NCBI RefSeq assembly: GCF_902833225.1 | Contig: NZ_CADFEI010000002.1 | Span: 434,001-498,000 of the forward strand | Source: Burkholderia sp. BCC1644 | GTDB taxonomy: Bacteria; Pseudomonadota; Gammaproteobacteria; Burkholderiales; Burkholderiaceae | Direction of reading: 5' to 3' | DNA: 64,000 nt | Part shown: positions 52,802 to 59,633 of the stretch, one piece after another | Numbering within the stretch: the stretch's first letter is position 1 | How the letters are laid out: every line of letters begins with the position of its first letter | The notes under the pieces: generated by a model | Told to the model about the DNA's origin: nothing | The model's database searches: none | What the model saw: only the letters and a program-made list of their open reading frames with translations | Position numbers and translations under genes: made by a program

Positions 52802-54418
52802 TCATGCCCCGTCGAGCGCCTGCCTCACCGCCTCCCAATCGAGCCCGAACCGCGCGAGATACTTGCGCAGCCGGTCCGCATCGTTCGGCTGCTTCTTGCT
52901 CTGCCGCGACACCGCGAACAGCGTGCGCCCGGCTTCCGACAGGCTCGCCGAGGTGCGGCACACGTCGAGCACGCGTTCGAGCTGCGCCCGGTCGAACAGG
53001 TCGAGTTCCGCCGCGCGCATACCGAACACCGCGTCGACGCACGATTCCGGCACGCGCGCGCCGCCCGGCGACGACCACGTGCGCGTCAGCCGCTCGACTT
53101 CCTGCTCGGCAAGCGCCTCGGTAATCCGCCCTGCATCGGCCAGCGTCGCCATCCGCGTGACCGACGCCGACAGTTCGCGGAAGTTGCCGGCCCACGTTGC
53201 GCGCGGTGACGCCGCGAACGCGAGATAGCGCCGCTTCGCCTCCACGTTGAATCGCACCAGCTCGCCCTGCTCGCGGCCGAAGCGATCGAGTTCGAATTCG
53301 AGATTCGGCTCGATGTCCTCGCGGCGTTCGGCGAGCCCCGGCAGTTCGTACGTCCACAGATTGATCCGCGCGTAGAGATCCTCGCGGAACGTGCCGACCG
53401 CCACCATCTGCCGCAGGTCGCGATGCGTGCCCGCGATCAGCTCGAAATCGCTGGTCGCCTCGACGTCCGCGCCGACCGGCAGGAAACGCTTCTCCTCGAT
53501 CGCCTTCAGCAGCATCGCCTGCTCGTCGAGCCCGAGTTCGCCGATCTCGTCGAGAAACAGCAGCCCGCCGTCCGCCGCGCGCAGCAGGCCCGCGCGCGCC
53601 GTCTGCGCGCCGGTGAACGCGCCCTTCACGTGCCCGAACAGCGTCGACATCGCCGCGTCGCCGCGCAGCGTCGCGCAGTTGATCTCGATGAACGGCCCCG
53701 CGAGCCGATGGCGGCCGCGCTTCAGCTCGTACACGCGCTTCGCGAGAAACGATTTGCCGGCGCCCGTCGGCCCGACCAGCAGCATCGGCGCGCGCGACCG
53801 CACGGCCACACGCTCCAGTTGCTCGATCAGCGCATTGAAACGCGCGTTGCGCGTGGCGATGCCGGCCTTCAGGAACGACACCGTTTCGTCGCGCTCGCGC
53901 GTGAAGCGTTGCGCGATCCGGTTGTAGCGCGACAGGTCGAGATCGATCACCGATATCGTGCCCGGCCCGCTCGGGCCTTCGTCGGTCCGCTGCGGCGGGC
54001 CCGTCTGCACGAGGCGCGCGGGCAGGTAGCGCGCTTCCGCCAGCAGGAACCAGCAGATCTGCGCGACGTGCGTGCCGGTCGTGATGTGGATCAGGTAATC
54101 CTCGTGCTCGAGGTCGAACGGATACGCGCGCGCGAAGTCGTGCAGCGTCGCGTAGACCTTCTCGAAATCCCAAGGATCGTGGAGCGTGACCGGCGTCAGC
54201 CGCACGTCGGTATACGGCGACAGCTGCGCGAGATCCTCCCGCACGTGACTGGCGAGACGCAGGTACTCCTGCGGATACAGCAGTTCGAGCCGGTCGATCG
54301 GCAGGTCGGGGTGCTCGCACAGCGAAATCGTCGGCCGCCATTTCGGGTAGCGACGCGCCGTGCGATCGCCCTGGTCGAGCACGGTACCGAGAAAACCGAT
54401 CGCAACGGTCTTTCGCAT
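52802..54418 (-). CDS. rtcR: RtcR, sigma-54-dependent activator of RNA repair genes
   Basis: A 538-residue enhancer-binding protein (E. coli RtcR 532). The N-terminal regulatory domain (about 1-180; MRKTVAIGFLGTVLDQG, HITTGTHVAQICWFLLAEARYLPARL) is a CARF-like fold thought to sense RNA-derived ligands. The AAA+ domain has Walker A VGPTGAGKSFLAKR, the sigma-54 contact loop HVKGAFTGAQ and Walker B GLLFLDEIGELG; the C-terminus has a Fis-like HTH region. The ATG at 54418 lies against an 18-bp palindrome. It is divergent from the slipin-rtcB operon, whose promoter is of sigma-54 type, so the whole matches the known rtc regulation. Confidence 0.94.
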   Translation of the reverse strand: MRKTVAIGFLGTVLDQGDRTARRYPKWRPTISLCEHPDLPIDRLELLYPQEYLRLASHVREDLAQLSPYTDVRLTPVTLHDPWDFEKVYATLHDFARAYPFDLEHEDYLIHITTGTHVAQICWFLLAEARYLPARLVQTGPPQRTDEGPSGPGTISVIDLDLSRYNRIAQRFTRERDETVSFLKAGIATRNARFNALIEQLERVAVRSRAPMLLVGPTGAGKSFLAKRVYELKRGRHRLAGPFIEINCATLRGDAAMSTLFGHVKGAFTGAQTARAGLLRAADGGLLFLDEIGELGLDEQAMLLKAIEEKRFLPVGADVEATSDFELIAGTHRDLRQMVAVGTFREDLYARINLWTYELPGLAERREDIEPNLEFELDRFGREQGELVRFNVEAKRRYLAFAASPRATWAGNFRELSASVTRMATLADAGRITEALAEQEVERLTRTWSSPGGARVPESCVDAVFGMRAAELDLFDRAQLERVLDVCRTSASLSEAGRTLFAVSRQSKKQPNDADRLRKYLARFGLDWEAVRQALDGA

Positions 54419-54437: not shown

Positions 54438-54567
54438 AGACGATCTGATTGTATCGGAATTCCGTAATCACGCGAGGCTGAAAGCATCGGCACCCAATAC
54501 TGCACATCAAACAAAACCCCTTTATTTTCAACGAACTAAAAAATATCCCGAGCGCAAACACGCCCAC

Positions 54568-54583
54568 TGGCACGCTCCTCGCT
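54568..54583 (+). promoter_or_regulatory. Sigma-54 promoter of the RNA repair operon
   Basis: TGGCACGCTCCTCGCT matches TGGCACG-N4-TTGCW with one mismatch, with GG and GC exactly 10 bases apart. Transcription would start near 54595 and give a leader of about 490 bases before the slipin start. Confidence 0.8.
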
Positions 54584-54707: not shown

Positions 54708-54754
54708 GGGCGCGCGCCAGGATGCCTCGTCCGGGTTCGAATCCCGGAGCGCCC
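54708..54754 (+). ncRNA. tRNA-like minihelix (acceptor stem plus T-arm)
   Basis: A T-arm CCGGG-TTCGAAT-CCCGG (54731-54747) with perfect T-loop sequence is followed by AGCGCCC, whose GCGCCC (54749-54754) pairs with GGGCGC at 54708-54713. Only 17 bases lie where D- and anticodon arms would be, so it is a mini tRNA mimic, not a tRNA. It abuts the second element at 54757. Confidence 0.65.
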
Positions 54755-54756
54755 AT

Positions 54757-54828
54757 TGTTCGGAAGCTCAGCCAGGTGGAGCAGCCGGCGAAAGCCGGCC
54801 GGTGGCGGGTTCGAATCCCGCTCGAACA
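54757..54828 (+). ncRNA. tRNA-like RNA with GAAA-capped stem in place of the anticodon arm (Y-RNA-like)
   Basis: Folds as a tRNA: 7-bp acceptor (TGTTCGG 54757-54763 with TCGAACA 54822-54828, one G-U), spacer AA, D-arm GCTC-AGCCAGGTG-GAGC (54766-54782), then GCCGGC-GAAA-GCCGGC (54784-54799) where an anticodon arm belongs, variable CGGTG, and T-arm GCGGG-TTCGAAT-CCCGC (54805-54821). There is no anticodon and no encoded CCA end. A 6-bp hairpin ACTGTC / GACAGT (54828-54845) follows. Bacterial Y RNAs (YrlA) mimic tRNAs this way and accompany rtcBA/Ro genes; the GGCGAAAG of the capped stem also resembles the GNCGAANG Ro-binding consensus as I recall it. Confidence 0.8.
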
Positions 54829-55086
54829 CTGTCCGTAAAGACAGTCTTGTGATGAAAGCAGTACCCGCCGGTGCGGGCCGACAGGCCCGCCGCGCGTCGG
54901 ACCGGTCGAGGTTCCGCGCGATCGGCCGGGCGGCCGCACGGCCTGCGCGGATGCGCACGACGACGCGATGCAGGATGCGTCGCCGTGTGCTTCGACGCCG
55001 GCCGGCGCGCCGCCCGCCCGGTTGCGTCGCACCCCGATTCGCACGATGCGCGTCACCCGGCGGCCGTTGAAAAAAAGGACAAAAAT

Positions 55087-56226
55087 ATGTGGATGCGACA
55101 TGTAGTGAAAAAGAACGAACGCGCGCTGCTGATGAGCGAAGGCGATTTCGTGAAGGTGCTGGAACCGGGCGTGTTCAAGGCCTTCGATCCGTTCAAGCGT
55201 CTGTCGGTGCAAACCGCGCGTCTCGACGCGCCGCTCGCCGACGCCGCGCTGGCCGACTACCTGCGTCACGACGCACCGGACGTGCTCGCGCAGTCCTTCG
55301 TCGCGATGGATCTCGCCGACGACGAAGCGGGCCTGCGCTATGAAGACGACGTGCTCGTCGAGATCCTGGCGCCGGGTACGCGCCGGCTGTACTGGCGCGG
55401 CCTGACCGCGCACCGCCTCGAACGCGTCGACCTCGCGCAGGACAGCATGCTGCCGGCCGCGCTCGTGAAGCGCATCGCGCAACCGGCGCTGCGGGCGCGC
55501 GGCGTGGCGGGCCTGACGGGCGTGCTGCTGGCGCAGGTGCCGGCGTACCACGTCGGCGTGCTGAAGATCGACGGCAAGATCGAGCGGTTGCTGGATGCGG
55601 GTACGTCGGCGTTCTGGCGCTTCAACCGCGACGTCGCGGTCGACCTCGTCGACCTGCGCCTGCAGGCGATCGAAGTCGGCGGACAGGAAATCCTGACGCG
55701 CGACAAGGTCGCGCTGCGGCTGAACCTGTCGGCGACGTGGTGCTATGCGGACGTCCTGCATGCATTCGGCCAGTTGCAGAAGCCGGTCGAGCACCTGTAT
55801 CGCGAGCTGCAGTTCGCACTGCGCTCGGCGGTCGGCACGCGCTCGCTCGATGAACTGCTGGAGGACAAGCAGTCGATCGACGAGGTCGTGATCGCGCAGG
55901 TGCGTGCCCGTCTCGGCGATTCGGGCGTCGACGTGCGCAGCGTCGGCGTGAAGGATATCGTGCTGCCGGGCGACATGAAGACGATCCTCGCGCAGGTGGT
56001 CGAGGCGGAGAAATCCGCGCAGGCGAACGTGATTCGCCGCCGCGAGGAAACGGCGGCCACGCGTTCGCTGCTGAACACCGCGAAGGTGATGGAAGAAAAC
56101 CCGACCGCGCTGCGGCTCAAGGAGCTGGAAACGCTCGAGCGCGTCGCGGAACGGATCGACCGCATCTCGGTGTTCGGCGGCCTCGACCAGGTGCTGAACG
56201 GACTCGTCAGCATCAAGGGCGCGTAA
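55087..56226 (+). CDS. Slipin / SPFH-domain protein of the RNA repair operon
   Basis: A 379-residue SPFH (stomatin/prohibitin, band 7) protein. The SPFH domain covers about residues 150-345: LLAQVPAYHVGVLKIDGKIE, VDLVDLRLQAIEVGGQEILTRDKVALRLNLSATWCY and DVRSVGVKDIVLPGDMK, followed by the coiled region VVEAEKSAQANVIRRREETAATRSLLNTAKV. No N-terminal membrane segment is seen, unlike classical slipins. The ATG at 55087 follows AAGGAC. It precedes rtcB by 60 bases; slipins are recurrent companions of rtcB in proteobacteria, possibly tethering or scaffolding the repair system. Its exact task is unknown. Confidence 0.85.
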   Translation: MWMRHVVKKNERALLMSEGDFVKVLEPGVFKAFDPFKRLSVQTARLDAPLADAALADYLRHDAPDVLAQSFVAMDLADDEAGLRYEDDVLVEILAPGTRRLYWRGLTAHRLERVDLAQDSMLPAALVKRIAQPALRARGVAGLTGVLLAQVPAYHVGVLKIDGKIERLLDAGTSAFWRFNRDVAVDLVDLRLQAIEVGGQEILTRDKVALRLNLSATWCYADVLHAFGQLQKPVEHLYRELQFALRSAVGTRSLDELLEDKQSIDEVVIAQVRARLGDSGVDVRSVGVKDIVLPGDMKTILAQVVEAEKSAQANVIRRREETAATRSLLNTAKVMEENPTALRLKELETLERVAERIDRISVFGGLDQVLNGLVSIKGA

Positions 56227-56286: not shown

Positions 56287-57510
56287 ATGAATGACATGGG
56301 TTACCAGGTGATGGAACTGGCGAACGGCAAGCCGGTGAAGATGTGGACGCAAGGCGTCGCCGTCGAGGACGAAGCGCGCGCGCAGCTGCGCAACACCGCG
56401 CAGATGCCGTTCGTCTTCAGCCACATCGCGGTGATGCCGGACGTCCATCTCGGCAAGGGCTCGACGATCGGCAGCGTGATCCCGACGAAGGGCGCGATCA
56501 TCCCGGCCGCGGTCGGCGTCGACATCGGCTGCGGGATGATGGCGGCACGCACGACGCTGACGGCGTCCGACCTGCCGGATTCGCTCGCGGGGCTGCGCAG
56601 CGCGATCGAACGCGCGGTGCCGCACGGCCGCGCGCCGGGGCGTCGCGATCCGGGCGCGTGGGGCGATCGCACGCCGGCCGCCGTGACCGAATCGTGGAAG
56701 TCGCTGCTGCCCGGTTTCCAGCGGATCGTCGACAAGTATCCGAAGCTGGAAAAGACGAACCACTACGCGCATCTCGGCACGCTGGGCACCGGCAATCACT
56801 TCATCGAAGTGTGCGTCGACGAGGCGGACCACGTGTGGTTCATGCTGCACAGCGGCTCGCGCGGCGTCGGCAATGCGATCGGCAGCCTGTTCATCGAACT
56901 CGCGCAGGCCGACATGCGTCAGCACATCGCGAACCTGCCGGACCGCAACCTCGCGTATTTCACCGAAGGCAGCCGGCACTTCGACGACTACGTCGAAGCG
57001 GTCGGCTGGGCGCAGGACTATGCGCTTCGCAACCGGCAGGCGATGATGGACGCGGTGATCGCCGCGGCGCGCGGCGTGATCGCGAAGCCGTTCGCGGTCG
57101 ACGAGCACGCGGTGAACTGCCACCACAACTACGTGCAACGCGAACGTCACTTCGGCGAAGACGTGTTCGTGACGCGCAAGGGCGCGGTGTCCGCGCAGAT
57201 GGGGCAACTGGGGATCATTCCGGGCTCGATGGGCGCGAAGAGCTTCATCGTGCGCGGGCTCGGCAACCCGGAAAGCTTCTGTTCGTGCAGCCACGGCGCG
57301 GGCCGGACGATGAGTCGCACCGAAGCGAAGCGCCGCTTCACGGCCGACGACCAGGCGAAAGCCACGCAAGGCGTCGAATGCCGGAAGGACGCGGGCGTCG
57401 TCGACGAAATCCCGATGGCCTACAAGGACATCGACGCGGTGATGGCGGCCCAGCGCAGCCTCGTCGAAGTGGTGCACACGCTGCGCCAGGTGGTGTGCGT
57501 GAAGGGGTAG
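56287..57510 (+). CDS. rtcB: RNA-splicing ligase RtcB
   Basis: A 407-residue GTP- and Mn-dependent RNA ligase that seals 2',3'-cyclic phosphate or 3'-phosphate ends to 5'-OH ends. VKMWTQGVAVEDEARAQL, HIAVMPDVHLGKGSTIGSVIPTKGAIIPAAVGVDIGCGM (metal Cys about 82), GTGNHFIEVC, HHNYV and the guanylylated histidine in CSHGAGRTMSRTEAKRRF (about 336) are all intact. The ATG at 56287 is preferred to a GTG at 56278, having AAGGG nine bases upstream. E. coli RtcB has 408 residues. No rtcA (cyclase) follows; a terminator hairpin lies 65 bases downstream. Confidence 0.97.
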   Translation: MNDMGYQVMELANGKPVKMWTQGVAVEDEARAQLRNTAQMPFVFSHIAVMPDVHLGKGSTIGSVIPTKGAIIPAAVGVDIGCGMMAARTTLTASDLPDSLAGLRSAIERAVPHGRAPGRRDPGAWGDRTPAAVTESWKSLLPGFQRIVDKYPKLEKTNHYAHLGTLGTGNHFIEVCVDEADHVWFMLHSGSRGVGNAIGSLFIELAQADMRQHIANLPDRNLAYFTEGSRHFDDYVEAVGWAQDYALRNRQAMMDAVIAAARGVIAKPFAVDEHAVNCHHNYVQRERHFGEDVFVTRKGAVSAQMGQLGIIPGSMGAKSFIVRGLGNPESFCSCSHGAGRTMSRTEAKRRFTADDQAKATQGVECRKDAGVVDEIPMAYKDIDAVMAAQRSLVEVVHTLRQVVCVKG

Positions 57511-58964: not shown

Positions 58965-59633
58965 TCACGCGCCGACGATCGAGATCGAGAACCCGTCCCA
59001 GCCCTTCTGCCCGACCGTCTGCACGGCCGTCGTCGTGAGCGCCGGCTCGGCCACGAGACGCGCGAACCCGTCGCGCACGCCGACCACGTCAGGCTCGCGA
59101 TTGTCCGGATCGGCCACGCGCCCGCGCCGCACGACGTTGTCGACGACGATCACGGTGCCGGGCCGCGACAGCTTCAGCGCCGCGTCGAGATAGACCGCGT
59201 TGTTGTCCTTGTCCGCATCGATGAAGATGAAATCGAACGGCGCCTCACCGGCGTCGACGAGCCGCGCGAGGCTGTCCTTCGCGCTGCCGACCACCACCGA
59301 CACGACCTCCGCGAACCCGGCGCGCGCGATGTTCTGCGTCGCGACCTTCGCATGGTCGGGGTTCAGTTCGAGCGTCACGAGCGCGCCGCCGGGCGGCAAT
59401 GCGCGTGCAAGCCAGATCGTACTGTAGCCGCCGAGCGTACCGACCTCGAGGATGCGGCGCGCGCCGCGGATCGTCGCGAGCAGCTGCAGCAGCTTGCCCT
59501 GGTTCGGCGCGACGTTGATCGCGGGCAGCCCGGCCGCGTCGCTTGCCGCCAGCGCGGCATCGAGCGCATCGTCGGACGGCACGAGCGTCGCGGAGAAATA
59601 CGCATCCACCTGGTTCCACTGATCCTGATCCAT
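58965..59633 (-). CDS. Class I O-methyltransferase (catechol/caffeoyl-CoA type)
   Basis: A 222-residue methyltransferase of the Methyltransf_3 family. SAM motif ILEVGTLGGYSTIWLARALP, then VTLELNPDHAKVATQNIARAGF and the metal/acidic motif FDFIFIDADKDNNAVYL with VIVVDNVVRRGRV. Such enzymes methylate catechols or related phenols. The start at 59633 gives MDQDQWNQVD, the frame upstream being untenable. It converges with the DUF1176 gene and is divergent from metY. Confidence 0.87.
   Translation of the reverse strand: MDQDQWNQVDAYFSATLVPSDDALDAALAASDAAGLPAINVAPNQGKLLQLLATIRGARRILEVGTLGGYSTIWLARALPPGGALVTLELNPDHAKVATQNIARAGFAEVVSVVVGSAKDSLARLVDAGEAPFDFIFIDADKDNNAVYLDAALKLSRPGTVIVVDNVVRRGRVADPDNREPDVVGVRDGFARLVAEPALTTTAVQTVGQKGWDGFSISIVGA

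Follow-up and report, generated by a model that had tools for sequence, protein, structure and literature searches.

In the Salmonella rsr-yrlBA-rtcBA operon, which includes a gene for Ro60, the RNA YrlA is reported to carry a tRNA-like domain and was suggested by the authors to act as a competitor or inhibitor of nucleases; fragments of YrlA are reported there as undetected (PMC7790460). Salmonella RtcR is reported to be activated by cleaved tRNA with a cyclic phosphate (PMC9879122), and RtcAB to bind the CARF domain of RtcR (PMC9650030). In Anabaena, TrcR is described as the repressor of a stress-induced tRNA array and of rtcB, and a slipin gene rises when TrcR is missing (PMC10272220). The pseudo-tRNA tRNAOther of Bacillus cereus is a tRNA-shaped RNA reported to be non-functional in translation (PMC3399842), and phage tRNAs with altered anticodon loops have been proposed to be forms insensitive to anticodon nucleases (PMC10264068).

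We investigated the leader of a slipin–rtcB operon in a 64,000-nt stretch of DNA from Burkholderia sp. BCC1644 (referred to as the window). It resembles the YrlA operon in that tRNA-mimic RNA is found inside an RtcR/sigma-54 RNA-repair operon, but the YrlA model has permuted arms (T-arm, stem, D-arm), whereas the leader mimics stand in tandem with their arms in ordinary tRNA order, and the leader operon contains slipin instead of an Ro60 gene, together with a separate 5' RNA domain. The Anabaena trn/TrcR system is similar in having a set of tRNAs that shares a repressor with rtcB and a slipin gene, but differs in its 26 tRNA genes, its RHH repressor and its targets scattered genome-wide, and no mimic pair is described in the available text of that report (PMC10272220). 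By contrast with the leader, tRNAOther flanks a pathogenicity island, with no link to RtcR, rtcB or slipin described in the available text (PMC3399842), and the altered-loop tRNAs are phage-encoded (PMC10264068). Full-text literature searching found no account of the tRNA-like pair in the portions of articles returned.

The original prediction had called the elements Y-RNA-like, in an operon with no Ro (Rsr) gene in the window. The YrlA covariance model (RF02553) scored only 19.5 and 17.9 bits on the window compared with a gathering score of 69, and had no match at that score in eight related loci. Among 25 slipin-bearing genomes searched with the TROVE profile (PF05731, E ≤ 0.001), 24 had no match, this genome (G000) being one of them; the sole match, in G172, covered profile positions 266–358 at 24.7 bits. 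Membership in YrlA or the Y RNAs was therefore rejected. What survives of the interpretation is that these are very probably selected tRNA mimics in an RtcR leader; it had not seen the covarying 5' domain, the tie to slipin, or the tRNA arrays of relatives.

Layout of the leader and its 5' RNA domain

The features of the locus are collected in Table 1. A divergent rtcR, a sigma-54-like site and rtcB, identified by Pfam and pattern matching, place it among the RtcR/sigma-54 RNA-repair operons, and both tRNA-like elements lie between the sigma-54-like site and the slipin–rtcB operon, which diverges from rtcR. The start of slipin is about 260 nt 3' of element 2. Among 89 dereplicated loci, with rtcR counted as divergent within 3.2 kb, a sigma-54-like site was present between −720 and −380 of slipin in 46 of the 59 loci with divergent rtcR, compared with 2 of the 30 loci lacking it and 5 of 1,180 shuffled sequences, in agreement with the earlier placement of the tRNA-like RNAs in the leader of a sigma-54 rtc operon. 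In leaders of many relatives read by eye, hairpins of differing letters occupy the position of the hairpin directly 3' of element 2, and a motif similar to the 3' segment GCAGTACCCGCCGGTG follows element 2. The CCGGTG motif of the 3' segment also recurs within the 5' domain of many loci.

Table 1. Features of the rtcR–slipin–rtcB locus, in positions of the window.
Feature	Position	Strand	Basis
rtcR, sigma-54 activator with RtcR regulatory domain	52802..54418	-	Pfam RtcR PF06956, E 7e-81; Sigma54_activat, E 2e-49
Sigma-54 promoter-like site CTGGCACGctccTCGC	54567..54582	+	Pattern match
5' RNA domain, P1 and P2	54609..54686	+	Model R1, 69.3 bits (own sequence in training set); covariation
tRNA-like element 1, acceptor and T-arm minihelix	54708..54755	+	Sequence; acceptor pairing test
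tRNA-like element 2, cloverleaf with GAAA-capped stem	54757..54828	+	Sequence; ARAGORN; fold; model R2; covariation
Small hairpin CTGTC/GACAG, directly 3' of element 2	54829..54844	+	Fold of 54829–54851, z −2.75
3' conserved segment GCAGTACCCGCCGGTG... with hairpin	54858..54899	+	Largely kept in 38 Burkholderia leaders
slipin (SPFH/Band 7 protein)	55087..56226	+	Pfam Band_7, E 1.4e-26
rtcB, RNA ligase	56287..57510	+	Pfam RtcB, E 1e-129

The 5' domain consists of the hairpin P1, with an internal purine–G mismatch, and the long stem P2, ending in ...GCAUGCCGC. A hand-guided alignment of 26 rows, covering the sequence 5' of element 1, revealed a hairpin, the motif CYGGYG and a long stem ending in RTRCCGC; both partners vary at 12 of its 16 pairs, and 90.6% of the cells pair, compared with 33–52% on sliding. 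At E ≤ 0.01 the model built from this alignment, R1, recognized 74 of 90 loci, a number that includes the 26 used for training. In a wider set of 80 R1 matches (six of them weaker than E 0.01), all 16 pairs change on both sides, in an alignment fitted to the model. Among 349 genomes of the order, 29 contain slipin at E 1e-60 or better. R1 matched 24 of the 349 at E ≤ 1e-3, ten of which had contributed a locus to its training, and by coordinates every match lay less than 600 nt upstream of a strong slipin match. Five order genomes with strong slipin had no R1 match (G164, G383, G105, G118, and G173), and five weak R1 matches (E 0.002–0.006) in order genomes without strong slipin were taken as chance. 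Across 369 genomes of the class, under stricter filters, R1 matched this genome only; thus the domain as modelled is narrow. Searched up to E 5, Rfam yielded no family overlapping the window's copy of the domain, and none matched it in five relatives at gathering scores. The 5' domain appears to represent a new RNA family.

The two tRNA-like elements and their anticodon loops

Element 2 has a 7-bp acceptor formed by 54757–54763 (TGTTCGG) and 54822–54828 (TCGAACA), a D-stem GCTC/GAGC (54766–54769/54779–54782) with the loop AGCCAGGTG, and a canonical T-arm at 54805–54821 with the loop TTCGAAT. The place of the anticodon arm, 54784–54799, is taken by GCCGGC-GAAA-GCCGGC, a 6-bp stem with a GAAA tetraloop. 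ARAGORN reported 54757–54829 as a tRNA whose type it could not assign, giving it an 'anticodon' of 2 nt. The original prediction of two tandem elements, one with a GAAA tetraloop for an anticodon arm, thus proved right to the base, by the sequence and by the ARAGORN call on element 2. Folded alone, element 2 adopts a cloverleaf (−34.7 kcal/mol, z −3.1) that none of 200 shuffles equalled, and model R2 scored it at 74.2 bits, the same sequence (L001) being in the R2 training set. The compensatory stem changes that the prediction had called for across relatives were found here as in the 5' domain: in a 42-row alignment of beta- and gammaproteobacterial sequences, both partners vary at 15 of 21 pairs, including all five anticodon-stem pairs, and 89.9% of the cells are paired compared with 32.8–42.3% on sliding. 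The T- and acceptor stems covary and the D-stem is invariant across these rows; outer acceptor pairs are often missing, with 73.5% of acceptor cells paired.

In element 1, GGGCGC (54708–54713) pairs with GCGCCC (54749–54754) to form a 6-bp acceptor, next to a T-arm at 54731–54747; the Burkholderia element has neither D-arm nor anticodon arm, and CCA is absent here. The best Rfam score of element 1 was for mascRNA-menRNA (RF01684, 23.6 bits), a family likewise of tRNA-like small RNAs but named for the MALAT1/MEN beta RNAs, and was under the threshold of 42.5. Folding of the element alone, using 54710–54754 with two acceptor bases missing, was no better than that of shuffles, 76 of 200 equalling it (z −0.26). 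Acceptor pairing exceeds that of shuffles: among 68 loci, 34 show a perfect 7/7 acceptor (G-U allowed) before the first T-arm, compared with 8.2% of 1,360 shuffles, and 55 show at least six Watson–Crick acceptor pairs, compared with 21% of shuffles. The support for element 1 is therefore comparative. It is more variable than element 2, a D-stem being present in 13 of the 68 loci and absent from 55. In 37 of these 55 D-stem-less elements, TGG follows the acceptor, a count that, uncorrected for shared ancestry, was never reached in 300 shuffles (mean 22.8); the motif may correspond to the D-loop GG docking on the T-loop.

The anticodon loops of element 2 differ between loci. The loop, CCA and acceptor counts use 68 loci, obtained from the 71 with a T-arm pair (see below) by setting aside L096, L097, and L177, where array or atypical T-arms had been picked; loops could be measured in 66, L100 having no D-stem and L116 no loop. 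Tetraloops were found in 21 of the 66 (14 GNRA and 5 UNCG), and 7-nt loops, holding 14 different triplets, in 30, where the script picks the most GC-rich stem, so that some '5-nt' loops may be 7-nt. On a slipin tree made by a quick method from 59 rows, with seven Burkholderia rows of L001–L036 left out, the stable-tetraloop state changed at least nine times, six of the changes being forced by well-supported branches. In the study of phage tRNAs with altered anticodon loops, those tRNAs were reportedly taken as still usable.

An encoded CCA, scored when no more than 2 nt from its expected position, is present in 4 of 68 elements 2, the window's own not among them, and in 32 of 68 elements 1; among real tRNAs it is encoded in 20 of 20 sampled from the genome's 53 and in 72 of 74 upstream tRNAs of relatives, a count that includes two tRNAs of L090 and misses three of L097 and the His and Lys tRNAs of L096. 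The Rfam tRNA model (RF00005, E ≤ 0.001), which found the 53 tRNAs, had no match at 54708–54829. The window elements thus lack three marks of a functional tRNA: a match to the tRNA model, a 7-nt loop with a conserved anticodon and an encoded CCA. Elements of relatives can pass the model, at least one doing so in each of the five element-bearing loci tested (L095, L110, L114, L139, and L179). Since the anticodon arm is absent, capped by a tetraloop or supplied with a triplet that varies by locus, and element 2 usually has no CCA, the mimics are unlikely to be kept for decoding. U33 is retained in 23 of the 30 7-nt loops, and GAT and CAT occur six times each among the 30 triplets (hand count), so in some of these lineages the loop may be compatible with decoding.

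Distribution of the pair and its association with slipin

Leader matches were found in 47 of 150 genomes, this one included. Among the 64 genomes of the same genus listed, 38, again counting this one, had full-length leader matches and 26 had partial, weak or no matches; an alignment of the 38 Burkholderia leaders, running from the promoter to the 3' segment, shows conservation of both elements. A wider slipin scan of genome contigs used the best 80 of 553 confirmed loci, and the slipin loci listed include Pseudomonas, Acidovorax, Variovorax, Undibacterium, Accumulibacter, Thiobacillus, Gilliamella, Citrobacter, Klebsiella, and Enterobacter. Merging of near-identical leaders reduced 117 slipin loci from beta- and gammaproteobacteria to 96, of which 71 have, in the 1.1 kb upstream of slipin, two T-arms separated by 60–95 nt, L096 and L097 being counted owing to array tRNAs. 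No such pair was seen in 1,920 dinucleotide shuffles or in 84 downstream stretches, and one was seen among 80 far-upstream stretches. Of the 88 pairs present before dereplication, 76 had a spacing of 68–76 nt, the length of one tRNA. In the remaining 25 loci the script found one T-arm, another spacing or none, with a single T-arm in several, e.g. in Variovorax. Six of seven enterobacterial slipin leaders have a single T-arm, with no acceptor visible by eye, and the seventh (L180) has none by the script.

In the same sample of 369 class genomes, slipin relatives at 41–50% identity were found in 20 other genomes. Nine of 11 such distant leaders (L194–L204) have two T-arms 46–76 nt apart, less than 700 nt upstream of slipin; in L195 the pair is found only 1.3 kb from slipin, and L203 has a single T-arm. 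R1 matched one (L194) of five distant leaders tried. Read by eye, L196 and L198–L202, from gammaproteobacteria, have the fuller cloverleaf first and the D-armless element second, the reverse of Burkholderia, and the second element bears a short hairpin, often GNRA or UUCG. Separately, the slipin match spans about 1,550–1,590 nt, compared with the usual 1,130 or so, in L107, L173, L157, L161, L164, L170, and L177, which suggests an insert in the protein or gene. An insert in the match also seems to shift the slipin start of Gilliamella, Snodgrassella, and B. stagnalis-type loci by some 420–450 nt. Slipin occurs in nine plasmid records, four of them Burkholderia replicons larger than 2 Mb, and was absent from the phage records searched; a Pseudomonas leader had no plasmid match.

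The pair or its remnant adjoins slipin also in loci with rtcB upstream or with no rtcB found nearby (L093–L095, L100, L101, L129, L149, and L179), and by gene position the leader pair is tied to slipin rather than to rtcB or rtcR. In 13 loci (L095, L179, L077, L084, L086, L091, L093, L096, L097, L129, L139, L140, and L156), canonical tRNAs precede the pair, 2 to 18 per locus with up to 18 in L095, nearly all with an encoded CCA; tRNA-His is present in 12 of the 13. L097 was added to this set and L090 excluded, its two tRNA-Lys genes, beyond its rtcR, being probably ordinary neighbours. None of the 13 has a divergent rtcR within 3.2 kb, and L129 alone has rtcR at the front of the cluster, with rtcB next, so that RtcR-inducible spare tRNAs would fit one locus and not the group. 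The gene after rtcB in L129 presumably encodes RtcA, judging from its start. No reserve tRNA array was found in the window, where ARAGORN called element 2 and a doubtful tRNA-Ala(cgc) at 59317–59390; the latter is absent from the genome's Rfam tRNA list and is probably a false call.

In Pseudomonas aeruginosa, the rtcB operon is reported to hold PA4582 beside a divergent rtcR (PMC8619066), and a 'tRNA gene', PA4581.1, is reported to be one of the most strongly increased genes in a later clinical isolate (PMC8743555). Because its number places PA4581.1 between rtcR and PA4582, and both R1 and R2 match the PA7 locus (L110), we infer that PA4581.1 is a tRNA-like element of the leader. In Escherichia coli, an operon of slipin and a nucleotidyltransferase near lysC (L232:4660-6907) has a sigma-54-like site and a leader in which a single T-arm hairpin can be read by eye, with no rtcB annotated alongside. 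R1 had no match to this leader, its likeness being read by eye from the letters. The operon may be a second RtcR target. At least 80% of a 2441-base E. coli query was present in 1617 of 5426 complete genomes.

Possible roles of the leader

Comparison of its parts and their order among sequenced genomes shows the leader to be a noncoding RNA module conserved with the slipin operon, which often also includes rtcB. We consider it very probable (roughly 0.9) that the elements are tRNA mimics maintained by selection as part of the RtcR response, for a purpose other than decoding. The structure of the mimics and their association with the operon are well supported, and it is their function that we infer. 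When nucleases cut tRNAs, ends with a 2',3'-cyclic phosphate would switch on RtcR and the leader would be transcribed. The mimics, predicted to fold like the acceptor/T-arm elbow of tRNA, would be freed by tRNA-processing enzymes, RNase P at the 5' ends and RNase Z or exonucleases at the 3' ends, and would then tie up proteins that hold a tRNA by its acceptor and T-arm. During repair of tRNAs by RtcB, they would serve as a bait or decoy for enzymes that damage, process or modify tRNA. As a whole, this chain is offered tentatively, at somewhat less than even odds, and its trans-acting step, taken by itself, is also a little short of probable. A bait or decoy is favoured because the acceptor/T-arm side is constant, the anticodon is free to vary, and timing should be governed by tRNA breakage where rtcR is present. 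Because Burkholderia element 1 has no anticodon arm, the function common to the mimics cannot consist solely of decoying anticodon nucleases, and an excised mimic poorly fits the enterobacteria because of their single T-arm without visible acceptor. Also speaking against the reading are the 25 loci in which the script detected no pair, the 30 of 89 loci lacking a divergent rtcR within 3.2 kb, and the undetected fragments of YrlA, its closest analogue. The tight link to slipin would be equally expected of a cis-acting leader.

Control of slipin in cis by the 5' domain, the mimics and the 3' segment is a possible but less likely explanation, nearly as likely as the bait or decoy because slipin is the constant neighbour. 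The elements might serve, for example, as RNase P/RNase Z punctuation for trimming of the mRNA, or as an operator for a tRNA-binding protein through which free tRNA levels set slipin translation. Consistent with it, the pair or remnant stays ahead of slipin even without nearby rtcB, a single T-arm precedes the E. coli slipin operon, the conserved 3' segment comes after the pair, and the T-arms are about one tRNA length apart. However, the roughly 260 nt separating element 2 from slipin in the window, the missing CCA of most elements 2, and their retention of D-arm, acceptor, T-arm and capped stem, seemingly beyond what a processing signal needs, argue against it.

Binding of the mimics or their fragments to RtcR, RtcB or RtcA, as ligands that feedback-tune the operon, is unlikely. 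Binding of RtcAB to the RtcR CARF domain (PMC9650030) and activation of RtcR by cleaved tRNA (PMC9879122) would be in keeping with such a ligand, but the pair tracks slipin and not rtcB or rtcR, and the ligands reported for RtcR are cleaved tRNAs rather than intact ones.

Still less likely, the pair would be the decayed members of an ancestral set of reserve tRNAs that replaced cleaved ones, with arrays surviving in some lineages. The 13 array loci, with their CCA-encoding tRNAs, and the joint rise of the tRNA array, rtcB and the slipin gene on loss of TrcR in Anabaena (PMC10272220) are in line with such an origin. However, the pair is far commoner than the arrays, which have no divergent rtcR within 3.2 kb, and compensatory changes at every anticodon-stem pair together with repeated GNRA and UNCG caps argue for selection and not decay. 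A decayed tRNA cluster, the alternative named in the original prediction, is likewise disfavoured by the covariation in the 5' domain and element 2. A YrlA homologue working with a Ro60/Rsr protein is highly improbable, for although a tRNA-like domain in an RtcR operon recalls Salmonella rsr-yrlBA-rtcBA (PMC7790460), the model scores far under threshold, the genome has no TROVE match, and the arm order is that of an ordinary tRNA.

The 5' domain, mimic pair and slipin might also form a dedicated ribonucleoprotein, in which a membrane SPFH scaffold loaded with mimics during tRNA damage would gather tRNA-acting enzymes or broken tRNAs for RtcB, a speculative arrangement that we regard as improbable. 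If true, the system would resemble Y RNA and Ro60 while being built anew from other RNA and protein components, to which some lineages would have added the reserve tRNA arrays.

A conserved, apparently non-decoding tRNA mimic in RtcR operons points to a tRNA-recognition step beside ligation, and the mimics link slipin, an unexplained partner, to RNA. The recurrent replacement of an anticodon loop by a stable tetraloop provides a natural experiment on which part of the tRNA matters, and presence of the family in Pseudomonas and, in reduced form, E. coli makes a role in coping with broken tRNAs testable.
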